The notes beneath the pieces are model-generated. The model saw nothing but the letters and a program-made list of their open reading frames with translations. It did not search any database and had not been told where the DNA came from. Position numbers and translations under genes: made by a program. A stretch of DNA of 53,837 bases from Bacilli bacterium (GTDB taxonomy: Bacteria > Bacillota_I > Bacilli_A > RF39 > UBA660): assembly GCA_017478105.1 (NCBI GenBank), contig JAFVEF010000006.1, forward strand, positions 1 to 53,837, read 5' to 3'. Below, piece after piece: positions 13,209-35,551 of this stretch (its first letter is position 1; the number at the start of each line of letters is the position of its first letter).

Positions 13209-13796
13209 ATGGAGAATAAAAAAGACCTAAGATTTATTATTATATTCATAGTAATTGTTGGTATTTCTTTAATATATCTAGCCCAAGCATCATATGCAAA
13301 ATACCGAAGGCAAATAGATGGAAATGTAGAAGCAACAGTTGCTCAATGGAATATTAAAGTAAATAATGAACTAATAAATAATAAAAGTGTTTTAACAAAT
13401 GATATAATTCCTTATTTAGAAAGCAATCCTTATATAAAACAAAATGTAATAGCCCCAGGAGGAACAGGATATTTTGATTTAAGTATAGATGGTACTGAAG
13501 TTGACGTAGACTTTACATATCAAATAACTATTGAAAATGATGAATTAGCTCCTCTAGAAGACTTAATAATAACTCGTTACGAACAAGACAGAGTTGCTTA
13601 TAATTACAATTCTGAAACAGGAATAACTGGTAATATAACTAAAAATACAGGTCCAGTAAATGTAAGAGTATACTTTATGTGGAATGATTCAGAAACAAAC
13701 GTAATGGATAATCAAGCAGATACTGAATATGCAACACAAACAGAAAATCCAATTGCTTATATAATAGCAAAAGTTCGCTTCAAACAAAAACAATAA
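13209..13796 (+). CDS. TasA/camelysin-like secreted protein
   Basis: 195 aa on the plus strand, ATG preceded by AGGTGAG. A membrane segment at about residues 9-28 ends AQASYAKYRR, a typical SipW-type processing region. It is followed by the motif ATVAQWNIKVNN, shared with the neighbouring protein at 13822 (ATVAAWDIEF). The rest is beta-rich (GGTGYFDLSIDGT, DFTYQITIENDE, VRVYFMWNDSE), as in TasA/CalY-type fibre subunits. It converges on the minus-strand region and shares a bidirectional terminator with it. Probably a secreted matrix or fibre subunit processed by one of the nearby SipW-like peptidases; no direct proof. Confidence 0.75.
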   Translation: MENKKDLRFIIIFIVIVGISLIYLAQASYAKYRRQIDGNVEATVAQWNIKVNNELINNKSVLTNDIIPYLESNPYIKQNVIAPGGTGYFDLSIDGTEVDVDFTYQITIENDELAPLEDLIITRYEQDRVAYNYNSETGITGNITKNTGPVNVRVYFMWNDSETNVMDNQADTEYATQTENPIAYIIAKVRFKQKQ

Positions 13797-13823
13797 AAAA
13801 GATCACTCATGTGATCTTTTTTT
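13795..13823. terminator. Bidirectional terminator between convergent TasA-like genes
   Basis: AAAAAAGATCAC, a 4-base loop, then GTGATCTTTTTTT: a strong stem with A-run and T-run on opposite sides, so it can end transcripts from both 13209-13796 (+) and 13822-14556 (-). Confidence 0.85.
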
Positions 13824-14556
13824 ATGACCCTAATCTTTGTTGAGCTAATAATCTAAGTGTTAAACTTAAACAAGATTTTCCAGTATCCTTCTCATACAAA
13901 GCACATTGCATACCGAAGAACGAATCAGCATCATCTTTTTCAATATATAATCTATTTTTATTATTATCAAATACAGTACTATCACTAACTTCAAATTCTA
14001 CATACTCTTCACCATTATTTATATAATATACAAAACCAGGATCATATGTATAAACAGAATCCATTGTGTAATACTTATCAGTTTCCTCAAAGCCCCAATG
14101 AACAATAGTATCAAAACTAATATATTGATTTATTCCAATGTAATTAGCACTAGGAGTAAAATTAACTTTGAAAGGATAATTAGTTTTTAAATAAGTAGCC
14201 GGATCATTAACACTAATAGTATGACCCAACAATGTAAATGAAGTAACTTCAAAACTAAAATCCGCAATAACATCACTATGATTATAGACCGTAACAGTCT
14301 TAGCATAATCTGGCATACCTGGTTTCATTTTAGCAATATTTATCTCAACATCATGAGTTTCTACATCATCTTCTTTAAATTCAATATCCCAAGCCGCAAC
14401 AGTTGCATCCAAACTTAAACTAGCATTAGCTGAAAAAGCAAACCACGCAAAAATATTAACACCTAAAGTAAAAAGTGCTAAGAAAATACTAACATACTTC
14501 TTCTTGATTATAGCTTTTTTCCAATTTTCACGTTTTTCGTAGCTTGTATCTTTCAT
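13822..14556 (-). CDS. TasA-like secreted subunit
   Basis: 244 aa. A basic cytosolic tip of about 20 residues, a membrane segment at about 21-45 ending WFAFSANASL, then the shared motif ATVAAWDIEFKED. The extracellular part is beta-rich, with MKPGMPDYAKTVTVYNHSDVIADFSFEV typical of the TasA/camelysin fold. Two Cys near the C-terminus (FGMQCALYEKDTGKSCLSL) could form a disulfide. It follows the signal peptidase gene at 14569-15228 by 12 bases, so it is a likely substrate. Last gene of the minus-strand run, ending at a strong terminator. Confidence 0.75.
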   Translation of the reverse strand: MKDTSYEKRENWKKAIIKKKYVSIFLALFTLGVNIFAWFAFSANASLSLDATVAAWDIEFKEDDVETHDVEINIAKMKPGMPDYAKTVTVYNHSDVIADFSFEVTSFTLLGHTISVNDPATYLKTNYPFKVNFTPSANYIGINQYISFDTIVHWGFEETDKYYTMDSVYTYDPGFVYYINNGEEYVEFEVSDSTVFDNNKNRLYIEKDDADSFFGMQCALYEKDTGKSCLSLTLRLLAQQRLGS

Positions 14557-14568
14557 CTAATCCTTCCT

Positions 14569-15228
14569 TTATAATATTTCTATTTCATCTTCTTTTTTCT
14601 TTTCCACAACTTCTTCTTTTTTTTCTACTTTTTCCACTTCTTTTGTGGATTTTTTCTTTTTCTCAATAAGTTTTAACTCATTCTTTTCAACTTTAATATC
14701 AGTAATAGTTTGTAATACCTCAAGTACTATTATTAAAACTAATGGACAAAAAACAAGTAAAAAGAATCCAAGTTGTGTTTTAACTATATGATTTATTTGA
14801 GTAATTATAGGAACTACTCCAACAACTTTACCTAGTATTTGACTTTCTTCTATCTTAGGATCTTCTGCTAAAGAATTTACACCTTTAGTCGTAAAAAGTC
14901 TTCCCTTATCAGTATCTTCAATATTTATTATTCTATGTGTAATAAGCATTCCTTCAAGTCCACCCTTATTACCTCTATAGGCAATATCATCACCTATTTT
15001 TAATTTACTAATATCATAATCTTTAACCGCAATAACATCATTTATATCATAAACTCCAGCCATAGACCCAGTCGCAACAGTAAAAAGTCTATATCCAAAA
15101 ACACTATTATTACCAGTCATTCTTTGAATAATAATAAAACTTAAATATAAAATTATTATACATATAAAACAAACTTTTATAATACCAGTAACTATTTTAA
15201 AAACAATATTATCTAATATTTTTTTCAT
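14569..15228 (-). CDS. SipW-type signal peptidase I with acidic/basic C-terminal tail
   Basis: 219 aa from the ATG at 15228 (GAGG 6 bases upstream). Membrane helix at about residues 15-36; catalytic Ser55 in VATGSM and His98 in LITHRI, the Ser-His arrangement of the SipW/archaeal-eukaryotic S26B family rather than the Ser-Lys dyad of SipS. A second membrane segment at about 150-170 (LGFFLLVFCPLVLIIVLEVL) is followed by a highly charged tail of alternating KKK and VEKKEE blocks. SipW-type enzymes process TasA-like proteins. It starts one base after the DUF2357-like gene and precedes a TasA-like gene. Confidence 0.88.
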   Translation of the reverse strand: MKKILDNIVFKIVTGIIKVCFICIIILYLSFIIIQRMTGNNSVFGYRLFTVATGSMAGVYDINDVIAVKDYDISKLKIGDDIAYRGNKGGLEGMLITHRIINIEDTDKGRLFTTKGVNSLAEDPKIEESQILGKVVGVVPIITQINHIVKTQLGFFLLVFCPLVLIIVLEVLQTITDIKVEKNELKLIEKKKKSTKEVEKVEKKEEVVEKKKEDEIEIL

Positions 15229-15229
15229 C

Positions 15230-16360
15230 TCATGCCTCAACTTTAAACATATCTAATAAATCATCTATACTCTTAACTTCTCTATCTAATCTATTATCCA
15301 ATATATTTATAATGCTCTTTCTTCTTTTAATATTCTTCTCTTTAATCATCTCTATTTGTTTTAAAAATACATCTTTTACTCTATCCTCAGTAAGTAAAGG
15401 ATCAGTTTCTAATAAATTATCAATTAATCTTACAATCATTTGTTGAATAATATTAGTTTCATTAGTACTTTGACTACTACTTATAAAATTCTTATTCGCA
15501 ATAAAAGCCATTAAAAACGCTTGATCATATTCATTTTTTAATACACCTTTATCAAAATAATCTCTTTTTTCTTTTTCTTTTTTATCTTTACTTTGAAAAG
15601 ACTGAATATAATTCCATAACTCCTCAGCTTTACGGAAATTAGGATTTTTTAAAATAACATTAGTTTTCTTAATAGGACTTCTAACAGGAGCCACATGAAG
15701 TCTTGTAAGTGTCTGCATTAACTCTGTCCCAAAGAATCCATCTATTTGCTGCTTTGCTTTTTTAATTCTTTCCGCAAAAGAAAAACCATTCTTACTACCA
15801 CTATGTTCCTTTATACTTTTAGAAACATCACTCATATCAATAGATATTTTTAAGTTTTCCCCAAATACCTTAGTATTAGCTTCATACTTCATGATATTCT
15901 TATCCATACAATAACTAGAACCAGAAGTAGCTTCTACTCTTTGTTCAAAAAACATTCTTAAATTATTAAGTAAAGTAAAGATAAATCTATTTTCATAAGT
16001 ATCCATACTTTCCTCTTTATTTATATTAAGTATCTTAGAAGGTTTAACATCACCATTATCTTCAACTTTTTGAATTAAATTAGTATGTTGAGTAAGATGG
16101 ATAACAGATTCAACAGTAACTTTACGAGCAAGTTCTACTTTAACGATTTCTTCTTCATTTATAATGAATCTCTTTGGATTACGTAAGATATTATCAATAT
16201 ATGGTAAAACATCTTCTAAGATATCTAACCACTCATAATCAAAATCTTTCATATCGTAATCTTTCTTTACGAATAAAGTAGAATTCAAGTTATTTAAGAA
16301 CACTTCGTCATCATCAAGTTTTTCATCTTCTTCTAAAACAACTTCTTCTTGATTATCCAT
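15230..16360 (-). CDS. DUF2357-like partner of the AAA+ ATPase, no nuclease domain visible
   Basis: 376 aa, soluble, starting with an acidic stretch (EEVVLEEDEKLDDDE). The central part, YENRFIFTLLNNLRMFFEQRV, and MQTLTRLHVAPVRSPIKKTNVILKNPNF... resemble the DUF2357 region that accompanies McrB-type ATPases in McrC-like proteins. I see no PD-(D/E)xK nuclease motif, and the protein ends shortly after a Lys-rich helix. The start has AAAGGAGGTAATTTAG. It is 16 bases downstream of the ATPase gene, so the two are expected to form a complex. The family call is moderate; the lack of a nuclease is a direct reading. Confidence 0.65.
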   Translation of the reverse strand: MDNQEEVVLEEDEKLDDDEVFLNNLNSTLFVKKDYDMKDFDYEWLDILEDVLPYIDNILRNPKRFIINEEEIVKVELARKVTVESVIHLTQHTNLIQKVEDNGDVKPSKILNINKEESMDTYENRFIFTLLNNLRMFFEQRVEATSGSSYCMDKNIMKYEANTKVFGENLKISIDMSDVSKSIKEHSGSKNGFSFAERIKKAKQQIDGFFGTELMQTLTRLHVAPVRSPIKKTNVILKNPNFRKAEELWNYIQSFQSKDKKEKEKRDYFDKGVLKNEYDQAFLMAFIANKNFISSSQSTNETNIIQQMIVRLIDNLLETDPLLTEDRVKDVFLKQIEMIKEKNIKRRKSIINILDNRLDREVKSIDDLLDMFKVEA

Positions 16361-16376
16361 CTAAATTACCTCCTTT

Positions 16377-17915
16377 TTATACCATCTTCTTAAGTCTTAA
16401 TAAATAGTCTTTACACTCCTTAAAGTTTTCTTTTCCAAAACTCTTATCTAAGAATTCAATAAATGGATCAATTTCATCACGAATATAAGCTAAGTTTAAT
16501 TGTTCAAACTTACGTAAAATCTTACGAGCTATATAATAATCTACTCCATCTACTTCTCTTCCACCACAACCAACATAAGTTGCGACAAAGTCTTTCATCT
16601 GTTTAACAATACGGTTACCGAAAGCTATACGGAAATGTTTAATAACATAATCATCCATATCATTTATTTTAGCTTCCATCTCACTAGTTAATGGATATTT
16701 ACTCTTAGCTTCAGCAAATAATCCTTCCAAGTAAGAACTATTAATATTCATCGCATCTGTATCAATAGGTTCAAATACTTGTCCTTTATCATTAATATCA
16801 ATTGGCATAGCACGGTCATACACCTTATCAGTAACAGCAAATGTAGAATCATCGTTATTGATTGTACCAATATACCACATATTTCCAGGTATTTGTAACT
16901 TACCTTGTTTTAACCTCTTAGGATCATTTGGCCAAACACTTGGAACTAACTCAATTATCCACTCATCACGAGAAGGCATTTCTAGAATAGATAACATTTC
17001 TGCAAAATAGTACTCAACACGAGCGATATTCATTTCATCTAGTACAGTTACATAAACATCATCTGTATATCCAGCTAAATACATACCTTTTAAAACTTCA
17101 GTCTCATTAAACTTCTTTGTAAATTCGTTGAAATAACCAAATAACTCAGTTCTATCACGCCATGAAGGTTGAACAGAAGCGATAATTGCATCATTCTTAA
17201 TAAATTTACCCCAAGCATAAGCAAGTGAAGTTTTACCAGTACCAGAAATACCTTGTAGGATAACTAACTTAGTAGCACTTAATCCTGATATAAATAATCT
17301 AATCATTTCACTTGTATAATAAAGTCTTAACTTAGAAGCAGCAAAGTTTCTAAATATTTCAACTAACTCTGGTAAAGTAAAAGTATTACCATAATTTTGT
17401 ACTTTATAATCTTTAAATTGTAAATCAATCGCATGTAATTTAGAAAATCTGATATCTCCATCTTCTTCATCATCACTAAGAGTCTCAGTTTCACCAGTCT
17501 CTTCATTAGTAATAGTAGCCTCTTCTCCAGGTTTTAAACCTAATTGAGAAACTTTCATCGCAAGAATCTTTTCTTTTTCTTGAACTAAATTCGCAACTTC
17601 TCTATTTAATTCACCAATTTCTTGTAACATTGATTCTTGTTCAACTAAAGTCTTTCTAAATTTTAAATACTTTCTAATAAAGAATAGAATAAGCATAACA
17701 ATTAATCCAAGAACAACAAACATCACAATAACAGCTATAACTACTAAAACCCATTCTCCACCAGTAAAATCTTTTCTATATCTGTCAATTATATATAAAT
17801 AATCTGGTATACTAAACATTTGAATTAATCCTTTAAAGAATCCACCTATTATAGATCCAACTCCTTCAAAGAAGACATTCATAAATTCAAATAAGAATCT
17901 AACATATGTATCCAC
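16377..17915 (-). CDS. Membrane-anchored McrB-like AAA+ ATPase
   Basis: 512 aa from a GTG start with GAGGAGGGATAG upstream. A hydrophobic N-terminal part (about 10-35) and a clear membrane helix (about 54-83) are followed by a coiled coil (about 88-122) and an acidic linker. The AAA+ core then shows Walker A QGISGTGKTS (221-230), Walker B VTVLDEMN (about 289-296), sensor-1 TINNDDS (351-357) and an Arg in DRAMPID (about 368), the McrB/MoxR-type set. Classical McrB is soluble with an N-terminal DNA-binding domain; here a membrane anchor replaces it. Together with the DUF2357-like gene it probably remodels or energises something at the membrane within this surface-protein locus. Confidence 0.85.
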   Translation of the reverse strand: MDTYVRFLFEFMNVFFEGVGSIIGGFFKGLIQMFSIPDYLYIIDRYRKDFTGGEWVLVVIAVIVMFVVLGLIVMLILFFIRKYLKFRKTLVEQESMLQEIGELNREVANLVQEKEKILAMKVSQLGLKPGEEATITNEETGETETLSDDEEDGDIRFSKLHAIDLQFKDYKVQNYGNTFTLPELVEIFRNFAASKLRLYYTSEMIRLFISGLSATKLVILQGISGTGKTSLAYAWGKFIKNDAIIASVQPSWRDRTELFGYFNEFTKKFNETEVLKGMYLAGYTDDVYVTVLDEMNIARVEYYFAEMLSILEMPSRDEWIIELVPSVWPNDPKRLKQGKLQIPGNMWYIGTINNDDSTFAVTDKVYDRAMPIDINDKGQVFEPIDTDAMNINSSYLEGLFAEAKSKYPLTSEMEAKINDMDDYVIKHFRIAFGNRIVKQMKDFVATYVGCGGREVDGVDYYIARKILRKFEQLNLAYIRDEIDPFIEFLDKSFGKENFKECKDYLLRLKKMV

Positions 17916-17917
17916 AA

Positions 17918-18970
17918 CTATCCCTCCTCATATAATAAAATATCAATATTTTCATTCTCATAATTAACAAAGAAATCTCTATCTCTATATTTATAATCAA
18001 CAACTATTAAATAAGAGAAAAATCCCTCATTAACAATATTTTCAGTTTTTAAATAAATATCATTTATATGAGAATAATCTTGTAAACAAGCATAAGTAAA
18101 TGAATCATCAAAAGCACTTCTTTGATTTAAAAATATATTATAATCAATTCCTAATACAACATATTTTTTAAATAAAGGATTATCTATCAAATCATATATC
18201 TTATCAATAATTTTTCCTCTACTAATACAATCACTAGAAAGTTCTAATATATATACTTTACTCTTTTTCTTATCTAATAAATTTTTAAGTAATTCTAAAG
18301 ATATTTTTTGAATTAGACATTCAATCTTTTTAATATCTAACATATCTTCTTCATATACCTTATCTACCATTAACTTCTTATAATTATCTAATGATTTAAT
18401 TTGTTGTTTTAAACTAATAAAGTCTATATCATCATGGCGTTCAAACTTACGACTTGCTATAGTAAAATAATTATCTTTGTAATTTAATAATTTATTATTA
18501 GTATTATAAGTCTCTCTAACATAACTAACTAATTTATTATCTAAATTACCAATCATACTCTTTACAATTTCATTATTATTAACAAAATCTAAAACAACTT
18601 TCTCAATTGAATCTTTACTATCAATATTCAATTGATCAATCTTTATAACTTCTAAAACAAAACCCTTACTTTTCTTAATAAAAGTAACATTTTCACTATA
18701 TTCACTATTACTAACTTCTAATTCATACTCTAAATAATTATGAAGTAACTCTTTCATAGCTCCATCTAATTCTAAAATTAAATTATCTATACTATAAGTT
18801 CCATTCTCAATTGTATCAAAAACACTATAATAATAATTATCAACATAAGTTTTAAAATACATTTTAAATACATCTTTCGCAAATTTATCATGTCTTTGAT
18901 ATATCAAACAAGCATATTCTACTAAGCGATTAATCTTATAATTCATAAAAACACTAATTAAATTATTCAC
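17918..18970 (-). CDS. Cytosolic protein of unknown function next to the AAA+ gene
   Basis: 350 aa, taking the GTG at 18970 (AGGTGATT at good spacing). No signal peptide or membrane helix; rich in Lys, Asp, Asn and Tyr, mostly helical, with a beta-alpha C-terminal third (SKVYILELSSDCISRG, YVVLGIDYNIFLNQ, YLIVVDYKYRDRDFF). No family recognised. It ends 2 bases before the AAA+ gene starts, so the two are co-translated. It is likely an adaptor or third component of the ATPase/DUF2357 set. Confidence 0.65.
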   Translation of the reverse strand: MNNLISVFMNYKINRLVEYACLIYQRHDKFAKDVFKMYFKTYVDNYYYSVFDTIENGTYSIDNLILELDGAMKELLHNYLEYELEVSNSEYSENVTFIKKSKGFVLEVIKIDQLNIDSKDSIEKVVLDFVNNNEIVKSMIGNLDNKLVSYVRETYNTNNKLLNYKDNYFTIASRKFERHDDIDFISLKQQIKSLDNYKKLMVDKVYEEDMLDIKKIECLIQKISLELLKNLLDKKKSKVYILELSSDCISRGKIIDKIYDLIDNPLFKKYVVLGIDYNIFLNQRSAFDDSFTYACLQDYSHINDIYLKTENIVNEGFFSYLIVVDYKYRDRDFFVNYENENIDILLYEEG

Positions 18971-19029
18971 ACTAATCACCTATCTTTACTCTTTTATCAT
19001 TATATCATAATTATTTAAATATTTATCTA

Positions 19030-19965
19030 CTAATTTGCAGAAATTACAGAAACTCTAATAATAGAATTTGGGTTTACAACAGGATATGTATAATTCTTTG
19101 AAACATCATCTTTATAAAAGATAATTGAATTACTTGAAGAAGCATTTACTTTAAAAGAAAATTTCTTAACATAATTAAACCCATCAGCTAAAGTAACCTC
19201 TTCATAATTAGTATTCAGTCTCCTTAAAAACAAATTATTTGTCATATCTACTAATAATAAACTAGGATCATATTCAACAGTTACAATAGATGAAAAGCAC
19301 TTATCCTTATCAGTCTGACTTAAATTATTGTAAACATCTACACTTACTTGATCCCCAACATTATAAGTTGAAAAAGCTTCACTAACTTGATAATAAGAAA
19401 TAGAATTAGTGAAATTGATTGTTAAAAACTTAGAATTAACACTATCCACAATATCATAAGAGAAATTACTCTTTAATACTCCTATAGTATAAGTAGCAGA
19501 CATTGTCTTAACATAAGGACTAGTAGAAGTAACTGTTGTAGTAACTACAGCTTGATCTCCTTCATAAAAGTTCTGCTTAGGAGTAACAATTAAACTATAG
19601 TTATCAGTTTGATCCTCAGGATGTAATACTCCTTCAGTCTTACTCAAAGTACAAGTAACACTACTAGGACAATTATAAGATATTTCATAAGTAATATCCG
19701 TCTTAGTATAACGTTCACTATTCTTACGATTATTAATATCTATTGTTAAAGGATAACTATTAACTCCATCCCAGTTATTTATTGAATAATTCTTCCCATT
19801 AACAGCTAAAATAGTACTATTAAAATAAAAACCTTTAGTCTCTAAAATATAACTATTCAAAATATTTTTTATATATCTACCAAAAGTAAAACTAACAAAA
19901 AGAAAAATAAATAATGATACTACAACAATTTTACTGGCAGTTTTATGTTCTCTAATAAATCTCAT
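19030..19965 (-). CDS. Secreted or membrane-anchored beta-rich protein of the TasA-like locus
   Basis: 311 aa with GGAGGTTACT before the ATG. Membrane segment at about residues 11-30 ending SFTFGRYI, then a beta-rich extracellular part with two domain-like halves. The first contains YEISYNCPSSVTCTLSKTEG and the LIVTPKQNFYEGDQAVVTTTVTSTSP strand pattern, as in TasA-type or Ig-like folds; the second is NFTNSISYYQVSEAF... to SIIFYKDDVSKN. Third in a run of three such genes (20593-21207, 19975-20583, this one). Not recognised at family level; a fibre-associated or minor subunit is the best guess. Confidence 0.6.
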   Translation of the reverse strand: MRFIREHKTASKIVVVSLFIFLFVSFTFGRYIKNILNSYILETKGFYFNSTILAVNGKNYSINNWDGVNSYPLTIDINNRKNSERYTKTDITYEISYNCPSSVTCTLSKTEGVLHPEDQTDNYSLIVTPKQNFYEGDQAVVTTTVTSTSPYVKTMSATYTIGVLKSNFSYDIVDSVNSKFLTINFTNSISYYQVSEAFSTYNVGDQVSVDVYNNLSQTDKDKCFSSIVTVEYDPSLLLVDMTNNLFLRRLNTNYEEVTLADGFNYVKKFSFKVNASSSNSIIFYKDDVSKNYTYPVVNPNSIIRVSVISAN

Positions 19966-19974: not shown

Positions 19975-20583
19975 CTATATAACTTGTTTAGAATCAATTA
20001 TTATTTCTATACTTTCTAAATAATTAGCATATATTGGATTAGTTGCATAACTAGTAGGAAAACTAACCTCTAAAGTATAAATATCTGTCGTTTTAGTAGT
20101 ATATGGAAGTTCATATTCACCTTGTGAGGTATATAATCTATACCAAGCCAAATCACTATCTTGTTGTGCTTCAGCTGAACCCAATATATTAGTTGCAGTA
20201 TTACTAGGTAATTCATTACGATACATCTTAATTAAAATAGGTAAATTAGTAGTAGTACGTACCTTTACTTTATAACTAATATCCATATCACTTAAAGTAG
20301 TCCCCTTAAAATTAGACACACTAAATTTATAAGTATAAGCCTCATCTCTAGGAATAATACCTTCTGGTTCTAAATTAAAACTAAGCTTTTCAGCATCAAT
20401 AATATAAATAGCTTTATCAATATCTGCATTAATTTTCGCAGCCATTTCATATCTAGCATAAACAACACTAAGTAAAAAATAAGCTAAAAATAAAACTACT
20501 AATAATAGAAACGCAAAAAGAAGAAATCTAAATTTCTCATTTTTATACTTAATATGAAATCTATAATTAATAGCCTTATTCAC
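19975..20583 (-). CDS. TasA-like secreted protein
   Basis: 202 aa. The GTG at 20583 has AGGTGAG at good spacing; a GTG three codons upstream is possible. Basic tip, membrane segment at about residues 19-42 ending VVYARYEMAAKINADIDKAIYII, then a beta-sandwich-like part: EAYTYKFSVSNFKGTTLSDMDISYKVKV and DIYTLEVSFPTSYATNP. The order membrane helix, YARYE, short linker, beta-rich domain is that of TasA/camelysin-type substrates of SipW. It starts just after the previous TasA-like gene stops and lies 9 bases upstream of the 311-aa gene. Confidence 0.65.
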   Translation of the reverse strand: MNKAINYRFHIKYKNEKFRFLLFAFLLLVVLFLAYFLLSVVYARYEMAAKINADIDKAIYIIDAEKLSFNLEPEGIIPRDEAYTYKFSVSNFKGTTLSDMDISYKVKVRTTTNLPILIKMYRNELPSNTATNILGSAEAQQDSDLAWYRLYTSQGEYELPYTTKTTDIYTLEVSFPTSYATNPIYANYLESIEIIIDSKQVI

Positions 20584-20592
20584 TATTCTCAC

Positions 20593-21207: not shown

Positions 21208-21259
21208 ATTATCTCCTATTATCACAATTATAGCATAATAATAAATAATTTAAAATAAA

Positions 21260-27900: not shown

Positions 27901-30466
27901 AACCGGTACTATTATTTCTACCACCAACTACACCACGAGCATTTGAATAAGTACCTTCAACGTATTCAGGATTCCACCATGAACCAGCATTATAAGTACC
28001 AGTAGATATTGGAATTCCTCTACCAATTTTTAAATTATAAAAATTTCCATAAACATAATTATAATATGAACTAGAAGCACCACTACTACTAGGTTGAATA
28101 GATCCCGTATATAAATCACAGTATTCAATTCTAAGATCAGCTCCCGCATCAACAGAAGCACTACTCAAATCAATACTATAATTACTTCTATTAGAACCAT
28201 TATTTAAACCTGTAACAGTAACTGGAACATTATTAGTAAACCCATCAATATCACTTGTCAAATAAGCAATATTAGTATCTCTAGTTGCTAAATAATAATA
28301 ATCATAATTAGTATCTTCATTAAAAACATCAGTCTCATTATATTGAACTAATTCATAATAAGTACAACTACCACTACAAGTACCACTATTCTGATAAACA
28401 CCTTTATCGGTATACATTCCTGCATAACTTTGACCATTACTTAAATTTCTCTTTCTAAAATAACCCGCAACACTATCACCATCATTTAAGAAAGAATTAA
28501 TATCATAACCTGTTGGTGTAGGAAAATTATAAACATACATATTACGATTTGAAAGATAATAATAAGTTTTAGAAAAATCAACATCAGAAATATCAACCGG
28601 CATATAGAAAGTACATGTTTGAGAATAATATCTTCCTTGTCTACGATAAGGAGTACATGCTTGATTATTTAAAGAATTACCTCTATCATTAACTGCTCCA
28701 CTAGGATAAGTAACACCATAATAACTAGTACCACTCTCTATGGTTTCTCTAGAATAAAGAGTAGGAATAGTAACACTTGGATCAAAAATAGGAGTTCTAG
28801 TAGTTGTCGGATACATCCCAACATCCTTTAATCCAGTATCGTCCAAATATCCACTATTTACACTTGCAACTACACTACTAGCTTCAGTCCAAGAAGCATA
28901 CATAGTAATCGATATTTCACTTTGTGCAGGTACTGTAACATATCTAGTATAAGTATCCATATCTAACCTTACAACAGCACCTTCATAATCAGTAACCCAT
29001 CCATTAAAGGCTCTATCATTAGGTCTTGCTGCATAAGGATTATCAATTAATGGAATAGTAACATAGCCATTAACTATAGGATAATATTTATAATAAACAT
29101 AATCAGAATATCTATCACTAAGTGAAACATAACCAGTTAAAGTACTACCCTCAGTGATTTCAGTTCCCTTATAAGCAATATAAACTTTTGCTAAATTAGC
29201 ATCACTATATATATTTTGATTAGTACCAGATGGCATAGTACCATTATCACTATTAGTATAGTTTAATCCCATATAGTAATAATAATCTGCATCTAAATCA
29301 TTAACGTAAACAGTACCATTATCTAATCCAGAAGCATGAATAGATAAAGCTGGACTTCTCATAATTGAGAATGAAAATGATTTAGAAATAGGAGAAGATT
29401 GAACTACAACTTCTTTTTCTTCTTCTACAATAACTTTTTTAAGAATAAACTGATTATCAACATAATCCCAATATAAATCAACTAATTCTTCATTAAATAT
29501 AGTTTTTAAATCATCAAAACTAACCTTTTCATCACCCTTAGTAATTACACCTTCACTAAGTATGTATTGATTAGTAATTTTCTCATCTAAAATATTATTA
29601 TTCTCATTATTATTAACAACAATCTCACTAATAACATTCTCTACTTTACCTAAATTATTAGATATTATAGAAACACTATTATTTTTATTATTATCATTAA
29701 TTACTCCAATCAATGAAACATTCTTAACAAAAACTCCATCTCCACAACTACCAAGTAAAGCACTAATTACATTCTCACTACTACTTATACTTGCAGTATT
29801 TATATGAAAATTACTAATAGTAATATTTTTAAATTCAGAACTATAAGTTTTTTCAACAACCTCACTACTTTCTAATTCTTCTTCTTTTTCTTCTTTAGTA
29901 TTATCACTAATTCCAACTAATCCACCAATTACAACCTTTTCAAGTGTCTCATCAGGAATAATTGAATAGTTTGCGATAACTATATTATCGAAATAAGCAT
30001 CAACAGTTTTAGAAAACATTCCATAATAATTAGTATCCCCTATTTTTTGAGGCTTTTTAATTAAAAAGTTTTTAAAAGAGTACCCCTTCGCATCTAAATG
30101 CCCCTTAAATACACGCTCTTGATCTTCTAAAACAACCCCTAAAGGAGTTATTTCACGATCATTAAAATCTATATCATTATCTAGGACATAATATTTATCC
30201 TGATAAGCCAAAAAAGAGTCACCTTCAATTAACTCTTTAAAATACATATATTCGCTTGCATCACTAATTACATAAGGATTCTCCGCTGTACCATTACCAG
30301 CTTTAAATGACGTCGCAACTAAAACACCATCCCATCCTTCTTCCAGTGAACCAAATGTTATTTTTCCACTTACTAAAAAGTAAGATAAAAAAGAAGCAAA
30401 AACTAATAGAAAAGCAAATAAAACTCTAATAAATAGTTTTTTTATTTTCAATTTATTTACTTTCAT
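21938..30466 (-). CDS. Giant repeat surface protein with YGGG beta-solenoid region and CBM2-like insert
   Basis: 2842 aa, AGGAAGTGAG before the ATG. Residues about 10-32 form a membrane/signal segment. Next comes a GLUG/pectate-lyase-like start (GTAENPYVISDASEYMYF, about 53-75), then an InlB-type beta-grasp stretch ending FNGWV...ITMYASW (about 490-535). From about 965 to 1960 run some thirty units of around 30 residues, each ending VYGGGN, VFGGG or similar after an INGGTV-type strand: a beta-helix or solenoid pattern. Between repeats, about 1570-1675 resembles a CBM2-type domain (DWEISLNVPGSQIF, LSPGGSYSFSFSV). The last 880 residues are beta-rich. It ends KKKSDG with no sortase motif or C-terminal helix. 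Probably an adhesin or matrix protein, encoded right after an active SipW-type peptidase. Confidence 0.85.
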   Translation of the reverse strand: MKVNKLKIKKLFIRVLFAFLLVFASFLSYFLVSGKITFGSLEEGWDGVLVATSFKAGNGTAENPYVISDASEYMYFKELIEGDSFLAYQDKYYVLDNDIDFNDREITPLGVVLEDQERVFKGHLDAKGYSFKNFLIKKPQKIGDTNYYGMFSKTVDAYFDNIVIANYSIIPDETLEKVVIGGLVGISDNTKEEKEEELESSEVVEKTYSSEFKNITISNFHINTASISSSENVISALLGSCGDGVFVKNVSLIGVINDNNKNNSVSIISNNLGKVENVISEIVVNNNENNNILDEKITNQYILSEGVITKGDEKVSFDDLKTIFNEELVDLYWDYVDNQFILKKVIVEEEKEVVVQSSPISKSFSFSIMRSPALSIHASGLDNGTVYVNDLDADYYYYMGLNYTNSDNGTMPSGTNQNIYSDANLAKVYIAYKGTEITEGSTLTGYVSLSDRYSDYVYYKYYPIVNGYVTIPLIDNPYAARPNDRAFNGWVTDYEGAVVRLDMDTYTRYVTVPAQSEISITMYASWTEASSVVASVNSGYLDDTGLKDVGMYPTTTRTPIFDPSVTIPTLYSRETIESGTSYYGVTYPSGAVNDRGNSLNNQACTPYRRQGRYYSQTCTFYMPVDISDVDFSKTYYYLSNRNMYVYNFPTPTGYDINSFLNDGDSVAGYFRKRNLSNGQSYAGMYTDKGVYQNSGTCSGSCTYYELVQYNETDVFNEDTNYDYYYLATRDTNIAYLTSDIDGFTNNVPVTVTGLNNGSNRSNYSIDLSSASVDAGADLRIEYCDLYTGSIQPSSSGASSSYYNYVYGNFYNLKIGRGIPISTGTYNAGSWWNPEYVEGTYSNARGVVGGRNNSTGSSGSPTKYSLIVESGYYNYLSGVSTNNSSATYYVDGTATYGNDFDRINNDHEKLGVYYNATSSYGGYIYGANNATKYITTIIKSGTFGEDTTDTAAGIYVGGLNGGTIYSPAEIIVEGGKVLYINGGPLISTNLTNYNAIYINIKGGEMDAVFGGAAVTETHGNRLINATGGVINYGVFGGSNGYNGSNSSSSKGTLNGSTLVRVGGSCQVGGKNDTRFGIESGSVFGAGNGNSNYSQIGSVNNSIVIVEDSADVRKNVYGGGNYGAVVAQSGNASSTNIYINGGTVKGSVYGGGNNNGSGSSNVTSTINISVNSGEVTGSVYGGSCAKGIVYGSTNVVVNGGTVKTDVYGGGEGGYTDSDSPGTYVRDNVAVTISSGQVKGNVYGGSAYGTVNAINETSTTSNATTTVTVNGGVVTNNVFGGGKGGDKSPKVVGNITVNVNGGSIGKVFGGFDASGKPSNGDVVYLNGGTIGDAFGGGNNANQDYTDIRLQGATITGNLYGGSNLLGTVSQSNVTVSSGSVNEIYGGNNLDGLTNNTNVVVNGNAATITLDIYGGGNEAESGTTNVTVTNRSVHSVYGGGKKAGATDTHVTLTGVTGDKVFGGSNVSGTVGESNVVIDTSTITKGYGGNNQGGQTTTTNITSIKSTVTDLFGGGDNAYCVTSNVGVNGGNITNVYGGGNEAGVGNTHVNIGNGNIVNVYGGSNNSGNITTSNVTLGSDNLAVTVNYNKRAPGYYPQSNKPTYAEINVTVTNLTIETIQDWEISLNVPGSQIFANNSQSNITLENGVATVNSVNRYYGYNSLSPGGSYSFSFSVLSDTDLNSFDVTGEPVRPINEYVPDVHVTNVYGGNNRGGVTSTANINAIGGVVDTMYGGGNLATVGNTNVETHKLICNDLYGGGNAAGVTGNTVVDINGSTINNNLYGGGNEGTVSGNTEVFVTDAHILGNAFAGGNGSTAVVRGNSTITIDGSTEVGTASTVAPDAGCVFGSGNAASTGVSGVDNSVATVNLVGGIVHGNVYGGPKMAVVYGVTHTNIGTSAVNNNDLVEDDIRITGTVFGGGESNASGSETYDWTFISVTKGIDVTINGAGYIANDHDFIINGSIFGSGNASSSAGDSNILVKDLGTLEKPNKSISIQRATNLVIDHSVIELEGTTDRTNEYSDIKYSFNIIDKMTIKNGTTLLLQHNANLLKELYSGVDSGSNVVPAVVGIDDDNKTVTKNVDNRIYMVPGQNLNVTTNPAGTAYGKVTGMTFFGMYTPYDNGTYRFGLYDQSVNYGDRGNASMEIIGGSYVKGLHHTNHDITLDGFYSNFLNDDLTEVSTAYINPSTLGERGYRWIIGFEAFSYEVSLLATKYSSLGTAELQLDDFAAGNTIFTVLGADTSGLNPEISLVDSNDVPRVAKTPEIANGVLGLSMKAETQEWTGRGTTKYLSADGGSFIGNEEYTTDSRQLVPSLMFYLYHAKNIDCDGKLGTLVITLRADIPKNQIDYDIKFITVTVTLTAMKISDVDSYDASISYDKRYEMPSSTSVNITNQSQFSTYYSLISWNDDFKKVYGNNNEYFHVLVTNYALPVNTMITMLDFCGNTNRPEYYYYRITQQDYNDSVQQLAQYNEITYRLSKFIKMDSTSTNNRYDDAVMNHVYYDEEAGLVDEEFMFIFDFKETTTTGQHLDNYMLFELRTPEDRTIYNVLGIREPLMYFNLYNSSNVVLEQTITDNEEYLYYNIADEFTYSTDIKYNETDNRESVIDTNYESSKMGLNVSILDRNGDPVSSSLLVGTSIIFDRKQYFADSDGVYRIKLADKVSNLVKNVSLTVSSDLPPEDYTIRYTLFASDDGLHNSSYENSVSSDYLVHVVNNDNSITVECDDLFKVVDGETSLNMNNTKVNQYTVKYNANLNNPNFRVEVYKRDISDIDGTSYTSVDFNNLFANRFSKAYGHGNEVYINMDSTTEKTFDFDLADNLTSGTYRISFKLYDNDQLIDEDIRYVIVKKKSDG

Positions 30467-30483
30467 GTTCTCACTTCCTACTT

Positions 30484-31710
30484 TTAATAATTACCTATTC
30501 TAACCATTCTTTCTATTTTATCTAGTTCAAAGACATTTTTATTATCAAATCTATTAGATACTTTCTTCATAAATTCAATTAAAGTATGTAACTGTTTAGA
30601 AGCAGTCTTATCATTTTTACTAATTTGTTTAAATTTATTATCTTTATCGATTTGAACTTTATACTTTAAAATCTTATATATACCATCAAACATTTCATCA
30701 TCATTATATAAAATTGCATAAGTAAGTAATCTTAAGAATACATAAATAGGCATATCATAAATTTTATTTCGAATAGTTTCAGTTAATCCTACTCGATCTA
30801 AATCATAATCATATATTTCTTTAAATGGTGGATTGTTTATTTCCTCAGTCAACTTGATAGAATTATCATTTACTAACAATTGACATAATTTATAAACATA
30901 TTGATATTTAGTTAACCATTTCTTATTCATTCTTGCTTTCGCAACATGATTCTTTTTACATTTAAGTATTGATACTACAAGATCAACAGTTTCTTTTTCT
31001 TTAGTATCTCTCTTTTTCTTTTTAACAGGTTCTTCAACCATATAATCATCAAATGATAAAACTTCAATTTCTTGAGTAGCTTCTACATTATCAGCTTCTT
31101 CTTCATTCGAATCCTTTATTTTTTCCATTTCATCCAAAGCTATTGTTACTGTAAGACCAGTAGATGGTTCTTCAATTCTATTTGGATTTGAAAATAAATC
31201 ATTTGGTAATTTCGCATTTTTCTTTTGTTCTTTTAAGATGTATTTTTCAATTATTTGATCAAAATTGAATAAAGCAAGTAATATAAATACTATTAAGAAA
31301 ATTGCGATAGATTTAATAATAAAACTTGGTGATACTACATTAACAACTCTACCAACCATTTGATCTTTACTAATTTCTTCATCCGAAACATTATTGACAT
31401 CACCTTTAGTTATATATTTATCACCATTTTTACTAACTAATCGATGTGTTATTAAAGATCCATCTTTATTTTTAAATGTAATAATATCATTTACCTTAGC
31501 ATCTTTTGTTATTTTAACAAATATTATATCATTAACTTCAATAGTACCAGACATAGATCCAGTCGCAACAACAAAATAAGTATAACCAAATACATTTGCA
31601 TAATCTTTCTTCATTAGATCAGTAACTACAAACGTATAAATACATAAAGATACAAGTAAGACTAAGAAAACAGAAGCTACATATTTCAATATAGTTTTCA
31701 CTTTTCCCAT
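30484..31710 (-). CDS. SipW-type signal peptidase I with long cytosolic C-terminal extension
   Basis: 408 aa. Residues 1-160 are a SipW-type signal peptidase: membrane helix about 11-30, catalytic Ser52 in VATGSM, His89 in LITHRL, second helix about 130-150. Known SipW proteins are about 190 aa; here about 250 extra residues follow. The extension has an acidic linker (about 195-225) and a Lys-rich helical domain (KKNHVAKARMNKKWLTKYQYVY...) with no recognised family. By topology it should be cytosolic and could dock onto cytosolic partners such as the AAA+ machine or the 539-aa protein (inference). It is 17 bases upstream of the giant surface protein, its likely substrate. Confidence 0.85.
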   Translation of the reverse strand: MGKVKTILKYVASVFLVLLVSLCIYTFVVTDLMKKDYANVFGYTYFVVATGSMSGTIEVNDIIFVKITKDAKVNDIITFKNKDGSLITHRLVSKNGDKYITKGDVNNVSDEEISKDQMVGRVVNVVSPSFIIKSIAIFLIVFILLALFNFDQIIEKYILKEQKKNAKLPNDLFSNPNRIEEPSTGLTVTIALDEMEKIKDSNEEEADNVEATQEIEVLSFDDYMVEEPVKKKKRDTKEKETVDLVVSILKCKKNHVAKARMNKKWLTKYQYVYKLCQLLVNDNSIKLTEEINNPPFKEIYDYDLDRVGLTETIRNKIYDMPIYVFLRLLTYAILYNDDEMFDGIYKILKYKVQIDKDNKFKQISKNDKTASKQLHTLIEFMKKVSNRFDNKNVFELDKIERMVRIGNY

Positions 31711-31742
31711 CTAACTCACCACCAATCTATTCTATCTTTATC

Positions 31743-31771: not shown

Positions 31772-31831
31772 GCTTTTTCTATAAAATTTATAATCATTTT
31801 TATAATTATTATTCCCCATAAATAATAAACT

Positions 31832-31857
31832 ATTCTACCAGTAAATTCTTCCAGTAA
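31832..31857. repeat. 13-base tandem direct repeat upstream of the signal peptidase / giant protein genes
   Basis: ATTCTACCAGTAA is followed directly by ATTCTTCCAGTAA (one mismatch). It lies between the terminator of the 539-aa gene and the promoter-like TATAAT at 31743. It could be a paired regulator binding site or a chance duplication. Confidence 0.5.
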
Positions 31858-31865
31858 TCCACTAC

Positions 31866-31890
31866 AAAAAAAAGAGACTAAACAGTCTCT
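31866..31890 (-). terminator. Rho-independent terminator
   Basis: An AGAGACT / AGTCTCT stem with a 4-base loop and eight T on the minus strand, overlapping the end of the gene at 31878-33497. Confidence 0.85.
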
Positions 31891-33497
31891 ATTTCTTCTT
31901 CATCTTTAACTACTATTCCTTGCATTTTACATAAATTATTAATTTCAGAAATACTAATATGACTTCTATCTATATTTTGTATTAAATTAATATATTTAAC
32001 AGTATCCATAGTAGCATCAATATTATCTTGATCAATCATTTCATTAGTAACAGCTAAATTTAATAATTTATACTTTTCCGCAACTATAGATACAATATCA
32101 AATTCCGTTAAAGCATTAACTTTTCTTAAAAATCTATTATTTGGATTATAAAGGAATTTAAAATAATCATTAACATTCTCTTCTAAACTTTTTTCTTCAA
32201 ACTTTTCATCACCAGAGAAAGACTTTTCTAAAAAACTAAATGAAGATAATGCACTATAAAATAAATCATAAATACTTGCCGATTCACTTAACTTATTTAA
32301 ATTATTAGTCATCTCTAAATCTTCAAGTTCATCATAAATAGTACATAATTTCTTTATCTGCTCATTCATTTCTAACATATAATTACGCATTTTAGCATCA
32401 TTCTTACGAGCCAAGAACCCAATACCATTAGCTTTCAAATACTTTTTATAAATACCAAGTCTTTTCTTATTTTCTTTATCAGCTTCTTTTTTCTTAGAAG
32501 CATATTGACTCTTTACACTATCTTTATTTTTATATCTTTCCAATAAATCTTTTAAGATAAATTCATAATTATAATATTTTTTTAACTCATTTAATGTCAA
32601 ATATAATCCCATAACAGCAGAATTATATTTTTGCTTATCTTCATCACTTAAACTAGCATAATCACCGTTAATAGCAAAAACATTATAATTCTTTCCTCTT
32701 GCCGGAGCATCTACTAAATAATCAGTTATTTTCTTTTTAGCATCTAAAAATAATTTAGAATTATAATACTCATCAACTGCTATTTTAGTACCAACTTCAA
32801 ATCTATATGAAGTATACTTAGATACTACATTATCTTTATTAACTTGACTTTTCTTATTCTCATCTTCAACTAATTTTTGAACATATTTAGAAAGTTCTTT
32901 TTCATACTTAGAAACAATATCCTTAAGATTCATTTTTAATTGAATTTTAATCATAGGACATGCAAAATATATTTTTTCAAATACATCCTTCATAATATCA
33001 GAATTAGGATTATCTAGTAATGCTGACATATATTGTTCAGTAAACATAGTATATTTAAAATCATTAAGAGTAAGAACAATTCCATATTTTTTAAAACGAT
33101 TAATAAAATCTAAAATAATATTATCCAAATCTTCTAAAGAAGTTTCTTCTTTAATAGAAGCAATTAAAAAATCTAATTTTAATTTAAAACTATCATGAAT
33201 AGTACTATTAAGTTTTACTAAATTTAGAAGTTTATCAACTTCAGCTAACTCTTTATCATACTCTTCAGTTTTATCAACAGGCATCTTATTCTTAAATCTT
33301 TCAACTAATTCATTCTCAATAAGAACTTTATATTTATCAAATACAACATGTTGAGAATTTACATAATTATTTCTATCTTGAATTGCTTTAAGGTGAAATT
33401 TTTCTTTTACTTTCTTTGTTCCTTCATCTGTTTCCAAAACAAAATTATCAATATGATTTTTATTGATTTCTATTTGTTTAGTAATAGTATTATTCAT
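31878..33497 (-). CDS. Large helical cytosolic protein of unknown function
   Basis: 539 aa from the ATG at 33497, which overlaps the stop of the small acidic ORF upstream by 8 bases. No signal peptide or membrane helix. It is very rich in Lys, Glu and Asn, with long helical stretches, and a coiled-coil-like region around residues 320-395 (KKEADKENKKRLGIYKKYL, MNEQIKKLCTIYDELEDLE). The C-terminus is acidic (VKDEEEIETV). No family recognised. Placed between the major TasA-like subunit genes and the signal peptidase / giant protein pair, it is likely a cytosolic component of the same system. Confidence 0.65.
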   Translation of the reverse strand: MNNTITKQIEINKNHIDNFVLETDEGTKKVKEKFHLKAIQDRNNYVNSQHVVFDKYKVLIENELVERFKNKMPVDKTEEYDKELAEVDKLLNLVKLNSTIHDSFKLKLDFLIASIKEETSLEDLDNIILDFINRFKKYGIVLTLNDFKYTMFTEQYMSALLDNPNSDIMKDVFEKIYFACPMIKIQLKMNLKDIVSKYEKELSKYVQKLVEDENKKSQVNKDNVVSKYTSYRFEVGTKIAVDEYYNSKLFLDAKKKITDYLVDAPARGKNYNVFAINGDYASLSDEDKQKYNSAVMGLYLTLNELKKYYNYEFILKDLLERYKNKDSVKSQYASKKKEADKENKKRLGIYKKYLKANGIGFLARKNDAKMRNYMLEMNEQIKKLCTIYDELEDLEMTNNLNKLSESASIYDLFYSALSSFSFLEKSFSGDEKFEEKSLEENVNDYFKFLYNPNNRFLRKVNALTEFDIVSIVAEKYKLLNLAVTNEMIDQDNIDATMDTVKYINLIQNIDRSHISISEINNLCKMQGIVVKDEEEIETV

Positions 33498-33669
33498 CTT
33501 TAGCTTCACCACCATCTTCTTGATTTTCACTTGCATCTTCACTAACTTCTTTTTCTTCTAAAATAATACTTTCTTTTAGATATTGAAGATGAGATAGTAC
33601 TTCATCATATAAGACTAATAAATCACTATCATTTAATCCCTTAATTTCAGTTAAAATTTCATTATTCAT
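33490..33669 (-). CDS. Small acidic protein, translationally coupled to the 539-aa protein
   Basis: 59 aa from the ATG at 33669 (GAGGTGAAATAT upstream). N-terminal half helical (MNNEILTEIKGLNDSDLLVLYDEVLSHL), C-terminal half strongly acidic (EEKEVSEDASENQEDGGEAKDE). The end overlaps the start of the 539-aa gene by 8 bases, with ATG inside the last codons. No family recognised; probably a small partner of the 539-aa protein. Confidence 0.6.
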   Translation of the reverse strand: MNNEILTEIKGLNDSDLLVLYDEVLSHLQYLKESIILEEKEVSEDASENQEDGGEAKDE

Positions 33670-33685
33670 ATATTTCACCTCATAG

Positions 33686-33713
33686 AATAAAAGCCTTCAA
33701 ATAACTGAAGGCT
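33686..33713 (-). terminator. Terminator or attenuator after the major TasA-like gene
   Basis: An AGCCTTCA / TGAAGGCT stem with a 6-base loop is followed on the minus strand by a short TTTTATT tail. It lies between the abundant-looking subunit gene and the rest of the run; a short T-run suggests partial termination. Confidence 0.6.
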
Positions 33714-33736
33714 CTTAAATATTATCTAAATTATTA

Positions 33737-34726
33737 TTAAGATCCAGAACTAGAATCAATACTGAATTGTAAACTATAAGTTAAAGATCCACCAGAAGCT
33801 TTATCCTCACAGTCAACATCTTGTCCTTCTATCCACATATAAATTCTAACCTTAGTAATTCCAGCGGCAACATCAAATGCATTGATATAAGTAGATTCTG
33901 GGATACCAGCTTCAACACTACCAACAGTAGTAACTGGAGAGAAATAATTTTCATCAGTACTATTTAAACGAATTCCGTTTGCCTTAGCAATAGGAGCTTT
34001 AACTCCATTATAAGCTAATTTACCACCAGAAGTTTGTCCAACAGTAATACCATATACGTTTAAGGCATTAGCAACACCATTTGCAGTGTGAACATCGTAG
34101 TTTGGTTCCCAAATCTTAACAGATTCAGATCCAACAATACCTTGAGCTTGAGCAGCAGTAGAACCTGCAGCAACACTACCTTCTTTAATAAAAGCAACAC
34201 GAGCAGCATTTTGAATTCCAGTTGCAGTTCCCTTAGCAACTACACTTGAATTACTAGTTAAGTAAACTGTTTGAGCAATTGTTGATTGGAAGAATAAATC
34301 GAATACAACAAAGTCTCCAGCAGTTCCTAAAGTTTCAGTAGATTTAACAGCAGTTAACAAGTTATCTCCTGAAGTAGCATCTGCTTCAATTGTTCCTTTG
34401 AACATTTCCAATTTACCAGCATTAACAACACCAGCAGTTGAAACAGGAACAGCTGTATTAGGTGCAGTAGGTAATTGGTTAACAACACCAGTCCAAGTAG
34501 CTCCTTTAATATCAGCGTTAGTAACAATTGATTTCCAGTTAGCAGCATCAACAGAAATTTGTAAACCTGTAGATGTAGAAACTGTAACATCAATTGATTC
34601 TACTGTAACAGTTCTGTTTGCAGTAAACCATGCATAAGTTGATGCAGATAATACTACAGCAGTAAATAAAATCATTATGATAGCTAATAAAATTTTTCTC
34701 TTTTTTCTATCTCTTTTCTTTTTCAT
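33737..34726 (-). CDS. Probable major TasA/camelysin-like fibre subunit
   Basis: 329 aa, GAAGGAGTTTAATT before the ATG. A very basic tip (MKKKRDRKKRK), membrane segment about 12-30, then ASTYAWFTANRTVTVESIDVTVSTS, the processing-site region and first strand typical of SipW-dependent proteins. The mature part is rich in Ala, Gly, Thr, Ser and Val, unlike its Lys/Asn-rich neighbours, and its codons look less AT-biased, as expected for an abundant surface protein. The C-terminal region RIYMWIEGQDVDCED, then GG, is shared with the product upstream (VVVWIEGDDPECKND, GG). It lies 17 bases downstream of that sister gene behind a strong promoter. Best candidate for the main structural subunit of the locus. 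Confidence 0.8.
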   Translation of the reverse strand: MKKKRDRKKRKILLAIIMILFTAVVLSASTYAWFTANRTVTVESIDVTVSTSTGLQISVDAANWKSIVTNADIKGATWTGVVNQLPTAPNTAVPVSTAGVVNAGKLEMFKGTIEADATSGDNLLTAVKSTETLGTAGDFVVFDLFFQSTIAQTVYLTSNSSVVAKGTATGIQNAARVAFIKEGSVAAGSTAAQAQGIVGSESVKIWEPNYDVHTANGVANALNVYGITVGQTSGGKLAYNGVKAPIAKANGIRLNSTDENYFSPVTTVGSVEAGIPESTYINAFDVAAGITKVRIYMWIEGQDVDCEDKASGGSLTYSLQFSIDSSSGS

Positions 34727-34743
34727 AATTAAACTCCTTCATA

Positions 34744-35457
34744 TTATTTTTTTGTTTTATTTTTCTTTACTTCGACATGTTCCTCGGTAAAGGACATATG
34801 CATTTTTATTTCGCCACCTAATAAATCGTTTTTACATTCTGGATCGTCTCCCTCAATCCATACAACAACTGTATAGCGATCTTTTCCATTAGGCTTAAAA
34901 CTTTTTCTTTGTTCCAATACTGCTACCGTATCAGAAACAAACCTCTTGGTACCCTCTTCAGCACTTCCATCAATTTTACTTTTCTTAGCATAGACTACTT
35001 GCTTTCCATTTTGAATAATCATTATTCTGATTGCTTCATCTACTTTAAGAATAGTATCATCGATGTCAATCTCATACCAATAATGGACGGTTTCTTCTCC
35101 TGCATTAACTACATAGAAAGAATATGCAATATAATTATCTCCATTATGTGCACCTGTTCCTTCATCTAGATTCTCAGGTAACCACTTAATGGAAATATTA
35201 TCCATATAGTCAATAGTCTCTGCACCAAGTTTTATCTGTTTATTAGATATTTTTCCATCTTCAGAAAGAAATACATTCTTTCTATTTGATAAGTTCTTAT
35301 CTAATGTAACAGTAAACCTTCCACCTTCGTAAACGATATATAGAGCTAAATAAATAATTGATATTACAATCAGTAATAGCAAAAATACAATCTTAACAAT
35401 TTTCTTAAATAACTCTCGTTTGTAAATTTTCTGTGCCTTTACTTCTACTTCATTCAT
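34744..35457 (-). CDS. TasA-like minor subunit, sister of the major subunit
   Basis: 237 aa from the ATG at 35457 (GTGATTGATA upstream). A basic tip of about 20 residues, membrane helix about 22-44 (IVKIVFLLLLIVISIIYLAL), then a beta-rich extracellular domain with AYSFYVVNAGEETVHYWYEIDI. The C-terminal VVVWIEGDDPECKND followed by a GG turn matches the major subunit, including the Cys. Unlike typical SipW substrates there is no clear A-x-A-like site after the helix, so it may stay membrane-anchored and act as a base for the fibre (inference). First gene of the run, directly behind the promoter at 35523-35551. Confidence 0.75.
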   Translation of the reverse strand: MNEVEVKAQKIYKRELFKKIVKIVFLLLLIVISIIYLALYIVYEGGRFTVTLDKNLSNRKNVFLSEDGKISNKQIKLGAETIDYMDNISIKWLPENLDEGTGAHNGDNYIAYSFYVVNAGEETVHYWYEIDIDDTILKVDEAIRIMIIQNGKQVVYAKKSKIDGSAEEGTKRFVSDTVAVLEQRKSFKPNGKDRYTVVVWIEGDDPECKNDLLGGEIKMHMSFTEEHVEVKKNKTKK

Positions 35458-35471
35458 TATCAATCACCACT

Positions 35472-35533
35472 CTGTCTATATATTGTATCACTAATGCCAC
35501 CTTTCCTACTATGCCTAATATTATTATAGACAG
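35472..35533. promoter_or_regulatory. Inverted repeat bracketing the leader of the TasA-like operon
   Basis: CTGTCTATA (35472-35480) and TATAGACAG (35525-35533) form a perfect 9-base inverted repeat about 44 bases apart. The distal arm overlaps the -10 element and the proximal arm lies just before the ribosome site. It could be a pair of operator half-sites for a looping regulator, or a large RNA stem hiding the ribosome site. Confidence 0.5.
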
Positions 35534-35551
35534 AAAAAATTTTTAAATCAA
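35523..35551 (-). promoter_or_regulatory. SigA-type promoter of the TasA-like subunit operon
   Basis: On the minus strand TTGATT (35546-35551), exactly 17 bases, then TATAAT (35523-35528). The predicted leader is about 60 bases before the ATG at 35457. Confidence 0.75.

Follow-up and report, generated by a model that had tools for sequence, protein, structure and literature searches.

TasA-type fibers are thought to form by donor-strand exchange outside the cell, and the known operons carry no energy source. Those operons, such as TapA-SipW-TasA of Bacillus subtilis and sipW-calY1-calY2 of B. cereus, encode a single SipW signal peptidase together with one or two TasA-like proteins, and they lack a nucleoside triphosphatase (NTPase) (PMC9674648, PMC10151520). 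We analyzed a locus in a 53,837-nucleotide (nt) stretch of DNA, hereafter the window, from a Bacilli bacterium (GenBank assembly GCA_017478105.1, contig JAFVEF010000006.1). Here an McrB-like ATPase, a DUF2357 protein and a cytosolic protein (U353) are encoded together with seven exported proteins (T1-T7), three SipW homologues (S1-S3), a large surface protein (BIG) and a further cytosolic protein (U554) (Table 1). From sequence comparison and predicted folds, this locus is probably a cell-surface fiber assembly system that joins a SipW/TasA-class pathway to an McrBC-type engine lacking a nuclease.

The locus resembles the two Bacillus operons in combining SipW with putative TasA-like exported subunits, in keeping the catalytic Ser and His in S1 and S3, and in a predicted T1 fold that matches the TasA fiber structure 8aur; it differs from them in all three of the numbers given above. 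Archaeal bundling pili (AbpA of Pyrobaculum calidifontis) share a TasA-related donor-strand subunit fold, seen as the fourth-ranked match to the T1 model, but T1 has no detectable sequence match to PDB chains, and we know of no McrB-type engine in these pili. The likeness to McrBC Type IV restriction systems and CoCoNuT lies in the McrB-like AAA+ domain and its DUF2357 partner, whereas here no nuclease was detected, the ATPase has a membrane tether, and envelope genes stand in place of restriction genes.

An association of this kind has been named once. A 2024 eLife paper applies the term CoCoPALM, in a short passage that defers a fuller description, to McrB/McrC homologues associated with signal peptidases and pilus assembly (PMC11090510). 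The traits given in the passages available are a GTPase signature of the form NxD rather than NxxD, with D or E as the usual next residue, an FtsB-like transmembrane and coiled-coil segment fused to the GTPase, an McrC homologue with DUF2357 and usually a coiled coil, and an association with the signal peptidase family (PMC11090510). Our literature search found the term only in that paper and its preprint version. The locus family studied here has the N-x-D-D/E signature, the DUF2357 partner (4.3e-13) and a SipW gene within four genes of the ATPase in 89 of 91 loci, these being the loci with four genes visible on each side. Where the FtsB-like segment is concerned, the ATPase has one predicted transmembrane helix (about 58-76) and only weak FtsL-type matches (E 0.06; two members in a wider set, best E 0.03). 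A difference is that the DUF2357 proteins of this family are short (361-410 amino acids, aa). The CoCoPALM passages available are silent on TasA-like subunits, pseudo-SipW proteins, U353 and SipW fusions. On these comparisons the locus falls within CoCoPALM or beside it. The original prediction had called it possibly undescribed, which holds for its parts and workings, described in no searchable paper as far as the accessible passages go, but not for the association itself, named in 2024 (PMC11090510).

Conservation and fusions of the gene set

Gene neighborhoods were compared in 32 loci from the same family, 20 from the class and 80 from named genomes; two locus collections overlap, and the 119-locus counts use distinct ATPase sequences. 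The gene order U353-ATPase-DUF2357-SipW-T2 recurred across the order and the class, and among the 119 distinct loci the DUF2357 gene directly followed the ATPase gene in 115 of 117. In the 91 loci defined above, U353 lay within four genes of the ATPase in 72 and an exported subunit-like (T-type) gene in 86, although in distant loci the matches to the T6 profile stem in part from the signal tip, and "T-type" there does not equal a proven TasA fold. It had been asked of the original prediction whether the ATPase and DUF2357 genes occur mostly without TasA/SipW neighbors; in these counts such neighbors are nearly always present, which favors a single system. Relative to the ATPase, T2 lay at +3 in 78 loci and T3 at -2 in 64 (neither count deduplicated), T1 kept its position and orientation in many relatives, BIG homologues of 2619-3057 aa stood at the same place, and some of the loci retained U554 as part of the system.

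The ATPase was present in 27 of 98 sampled family genomes and 54 of 193 order genomes (a few by weak matches), and its domain profile matched 105 of 296 genomes of the class. T7 occurred in 36 of the 193 order genomes, 35 of which also carried the ATPase (Fisher p 2e-24, overstated since kinship between genomes is ignored), while a genome of the same genus, G013, had neither. On this comparative sequence evidence the locus is real and one functional unit, and its gene set is widely conserved in uncultured gut Bacilli and Clostridia.

Gene fusions tie the components together. SipW-U353 fusions were found in 12 family loci (U353 E 1e-33 to 1e-44) and four other loci; the fused SipW adjoins the ATPase, U353 occupies the C-terminal end past the second membrane helix, and the fusion replaces a separate U353 in the loci displayed. 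If SipW has its usual topology, the U353 part would be cytosolic. SipW-T4 fusions were present in L072, L145, L155 and L164, and T2-SipW fusions in L160 and L179. Because they join a neighbor of the engine, the peptidase and a subunit in single chains, the fusions argue strongly for a common function. That the ATPase set acts on subunits from the cytosolic side, as first proposed, gains support from the SipW-U353 fusions as to the side, whereas the target of the machine, like the choice of ATP or GTP as fuel, is something we infer.

All three SipW-type proteins matched the NCBIfam SipW model (S1 8e-22, S2 5.6e-6, S3 3.2e-15), and S1 also exceeded the cut-off for sigpep_I_arch. Among SipW-type sequences from all loci (n=200, not deduplicated), all 197 that aligned kept the catalytic Ser and all 200 kept the His. 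Among S2-type sequences (n=71, not deduplicated), Ser was kept in 10 and His in two; S2 therefore belongs to a conserved pseudo-peptidase family retained in the same gene clusters. The three predicted SipW relatives are therefore all SipW homologues, but one of them lacks the catalytic residues.

In loci L066, L067 and L070 the U353-ATPase-DUF2357 genes stand without a nearby SipW-type gene of this family, and DUF2357 is followed by a gene whose product has a cytosolic domain, a transmembrane helix, DxDxDG repeats and an outer domain. Since that outer domain aligns with the L068 subunits (98% probability), two of which match the camelysin model just under the cut-off, the engine thus pairs with an outer domain resembling TasA/camelysin even where it has no SipW of its own. 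Where a related McrB domain has a different N-terminus (L118, L119, L122), SipW/TasA neighbors are absent, which ties the association to the full-length ATPase type with its membrane tether. Two further arrangements were observed: at L108 and L109, two ATPase copies separated by about 15 kb lie on either side of a set of T6, T7 and a 2.3-kaa (kilo-amino-acid) surface protein, and in L167 and L173 DUF2357-ATPase lies beside a 2.76-kaa single-helix protein and a short T1-like gene, with no SipW nearby.

The putative engine and the exported proteins

The predicted membrane-anchored McrB-like ATPase with a DUF2357-like partner was borne out: the protein combines one predicted N-terminal membrane helix with an AAA_5/McrB-like domain carrying Walker A (GISGTGKTS), Walker B (LDEMN) and NxD (NNDD) motifs. 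Walker A, Walker B, the sensor-1 region and a DKVYDRA motif were invariant or nearly so in 20 aligned relatives, and Walker A, Walker B and NxD were all intact among the full-length members aligned. These motifs persist in class-wide members, and in every member inspected from the window family and the class the residue after N-x-D was D or E. DUF2357 is the domain by which McrC activates McrB, according to the part of PMC11090510 available. No nuclease domain was detected in the DUF2357 protein (Pfam; no PD-(D/E)xK match) or in ten class-wide partners (Pfam), and the remaining locus proteins matched no nuclease family in Pfam or NCBIfam. U353 matched no known family in library scans, and PDB sequence searches with the DUF2357 and ATPase profiles returned no useful match. 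An unannotated gut phage record (MT835511, 40037-41176) encodes an McrB-like domain with 35% identity to the ATPase, the domain only.

Each of T1-T7 has one N-terminal membrane helix (7/7) with a short cytosolic tip. The AlphaFold model of T1 (predicted local distance difference test, pLDDT, 85) was compared with 350,542 chains, and its top match was the TasA fiber 8aur (E 8e-4, probability 1.00), the sole PDB match below E 0.001; chaperone-usher pilins ranked below it, with the archaeal bundling pilus 7ueg at rank 4. T2 matched T1 by profile across 164 columns, T4 matched T1 by hhalign (96%, 98 columns), and T1/T5 profile cross-matches reached 3e-23 and 3e-17. A TasA-like assignment is thereby supported for four of the seven, T1 by predicted fold and T2, T4 and T5 by profile. 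T3 and T6 match T1 at the signal/transmembrane tip only, and T6 and T7 have a common C-terminal WIEGxDxDC motif; these three are predicted exported proteins in which a TasA fold is unproven. T6 often occurs as two or three paralogues (L061, L062, L064). PDB sequence searches with the T1, T4 and T7 profiles gave no useful match, and the Pfam camelysin model did not match the window T proteins, with weak matches only elsewhere in the genome and phylum. BIG, foreseen as a 2842-aa repeat protein, is present as such, with 22 [VIL][YF]GG motifs often spaced 24-36 aa apart and no LPxTG motif found.

Gene layout and surroundings

Table 1. Features of the locus, in window coordinates.
Feature	Position	Strand	Description
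T1	13209..13796	+	TasA-like subunit (supported by predicted fold), 195 aa; single N-terminal transmembrane helix; convergent with T2
T2	13822..14556	-	TasA-like subunit (profile basis) adjoining S1; candidate membrane-anchored base subunit
S1	14569..15240	-	SipW-type signal peptidase; catalytic Ser59 and His102 kept
DUF2357 protein	15230..16360	-	McrC N-terminal-like, 376 aa; Pfam PF09823, 4.3e-13
ATPase	16377..17915	-	McrB-like AAA+ NTPase, 512 aa; one predicted transmembrane helix (about 58-76)
U353	17918..18979	-	Cytosolic protein adjoining ATPase gene; no known family
T3	19030..19965	-	Exported single-transmembrane protein, 311 aa
T4	19975..20592	-	TasA-like subunit (profile basis)
T5	20593..21225	-	TasA-like subunit (profile basis)
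S2	21303..21893	-	SipW homologue without catalytic Ser and His (pseudo-peptidase)
BIG	21938..30466	-	2842-aa surface protein; N-terminal transmembrane helix and YGG-type repeats
S3	30484..31710	-	SipW-type signal peptidase; catalytic Ser and His kept; ~240-aa cytosolic C-terminal region
U554	31878..33542	-	Cytosolic protein; no known family
T6	33737..34726	-	Exported single-transmembrane beta-rich protein; candidate major subunit
T7	34744..35463	-	Exported single-transmembrane protein

Fourteen minus-strand genes run in a row from 35463 down to 13822, in the transcription order T7, T6, U554, S3, BIG, S2, T5, T4, T3, U353, ATPase, DUF2357, S1, T2, with T1 convergent on the plus strand; the ends of T1 and T2 are 25 nt apart. 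Intergenic distances are mostly -11 to 77 nt, and with two larger gaps of 167 and 194 nt the layout agrees with the near-single-strand, tightly packed locus described at the outset. T7 is listed with a TTG start, and the in-frame ATG two codons downstream (MNEVEV) is the likelier one.

The window is AT-rich (23-35% GC in 2-kb steps) and belongs to a 1.28-Mb genome that is 86% complete. Among named genomes its nearest relatives are metagenome genomes of uncultured Bacilli/Erysipelotrichaceae, of which many come from ruminant gut, with ATPase identities of 86% in L123 and L134 and 85% in L125 (goat jejunum). A tRNA-Leu gene adjoins T7, yet a mobile island was rejected: the window holds no second copy of the 3' end of this tRNA, the tRNA at that site is missing in most relatives, and no full-length plasmid or phage copy was found.

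Elsewhere in the window, 2625-6113 encodes a 1162-aa protein with an N-terminal methylation (type IV pilin-like) motif, and 38619-41073 contains a sigma factor alongside SpoVAC/SpoVAEB-type and SpoVAD genes, that is, sporulation genes in a 1.28-Mb genome. A second SipW/TasA-like cluster, one with no ATPase, lies at 45098-51286 (minus strand). It encodes a 705-aa repeat surface protein, camelysin-like proteins of 194 and 218 aa, an intact SipW of 166 aa, a DUF285 protein of 554 aa and a 231-aa protein bearing a C-terminal anchor of the PDTG type, and it can usefully be set against the ATPase-linked locus of the same genome. A sortase gene at 37431-38384 (Pfam 5.6e-13) possibly serves the PDTG-type protein (46769-47464).

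A candidate assembly platform and its rivals

The locus is best read as an NTP-driven or NTP-gated fiber-assembly platform. In such a platform the NTPase would form a ring under the membrane with DUF2357 as its switch, in the way that McrC acts on McrB, and U353 would couple it to the SipW cytosolic tail. Cycles of NTP use would then gate or drive subunit processing, release from the membrane and handover to a growing donor-strand fiber. The pseudo-SipW would hold the signal helices of subunits uncut as a base platform, and BIG may be displayed on, or anchored by, the fiber. The detailed version, in which an McrBC-type NTPase without a nuclease has come to serve as a trans-membrane engine, powering or gating the assembly of TasA-class fibers via U353 on SipW tails, with the dead SipW as platform, we hold tentatively, at slightly short of an even chance.

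Several observations weigh against this proposal. The fiber, the NTPase activity and the interactions are all predicted only. The T1 matches have low template-modeling scores, about 0.3-0.4 and for 8aur 0.30-0.35, which may come from a different placement of the transmembrane helix and donor strand. The candidate major subunit T6 (model pLDDT 78) gave no significant match in the fold search, TasA included. Structure comparison of the TasA-like calls hence came out divided, T1 matching the TasA fiber and T6 not, and of the seven TasA-like subunits originally predicted, the single helix stands in all seven and TasA likeness in T1, T2, T4 and T5, but not in T6, in T3 (tip only) or in T7 (only the motif in common with T6). 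The same genome carries the ATPase-free cluster at 45098-51286, so TasA-type assembly in general needs no engine, and SipW-type genes occur in 184 of 193 order genomes, most of which lack the ATPase. SipW copy number alone was rejected as a marker of the system, SipW being in nearly every order genome.

How much of this could be an ordinary SipW/TasA cluster that happens to lie beside unrelated McrB-like genes? The frequency of SipW in the order and the ATPase-free cluster would both allow it, but a gene order conserved over 119 distinct loci from many families, the co-inheritance of T7 and the ATPase (with kinship ignored) and the gene fusions make it very improbable, and we regard a coincidental neighborhood as refuted by the conservation and fusion data. 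The NTPase could instead be an unfoldase or extractor that clears from the membrane, or recycles, those subunits and signal helices that were mis-inserted or left uncleaved, a quality-control role rather than a source of power for polymerization. An AAA+ domain with a membrane tether and a cytosolic partner would suit this role, every subunit offers a membrane helix with a short cytosolic tip, and the pseudo-SipW could hold clients; however, library scans recognized no protease or degradation partner in the locus, McrB/McrC relatives are to our knowledge not known as unfoldases, and we consider this role unlikely.

Still less probable is that the NTPase, DUF2357 protein and U353 make up a defense or envelope-stress module, a CoCoNuT-like relative of Type IV restriction, that monitors or is released by the fiber and does not build it. 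McrB/DUF2357 relatives include restriction and candidate defense proteins in the passages available of PMC11090510, and the ATPase matches the PADLOC candidate PDC-M26A (6e-36), of which the literature searched held no mention. Yet the DUF2357 partner has no convincing match to any PADLOC model, none of the DUF2357 partners scanned has a nuclease or other effector domain, the full-length form was not found on plasmids or phages, and the SipW-U353 fusions also speak against a defense role.

If the fiber-assembly proposal is true, the locus would represent the first NTP-coupled SipW/TasA fiber pathway, and one spread widely among gut Bacilli and Clostridia. The idea lends itself to direct tests through the conserved pseudo-SipW and the SipW-U353 fusions. 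Should the AAA+ module be wired into SipW, many gut bacteria would control or power fiber assembly from inside the cell, and the engine of a restriction system would have been repurposed for building the envelope.

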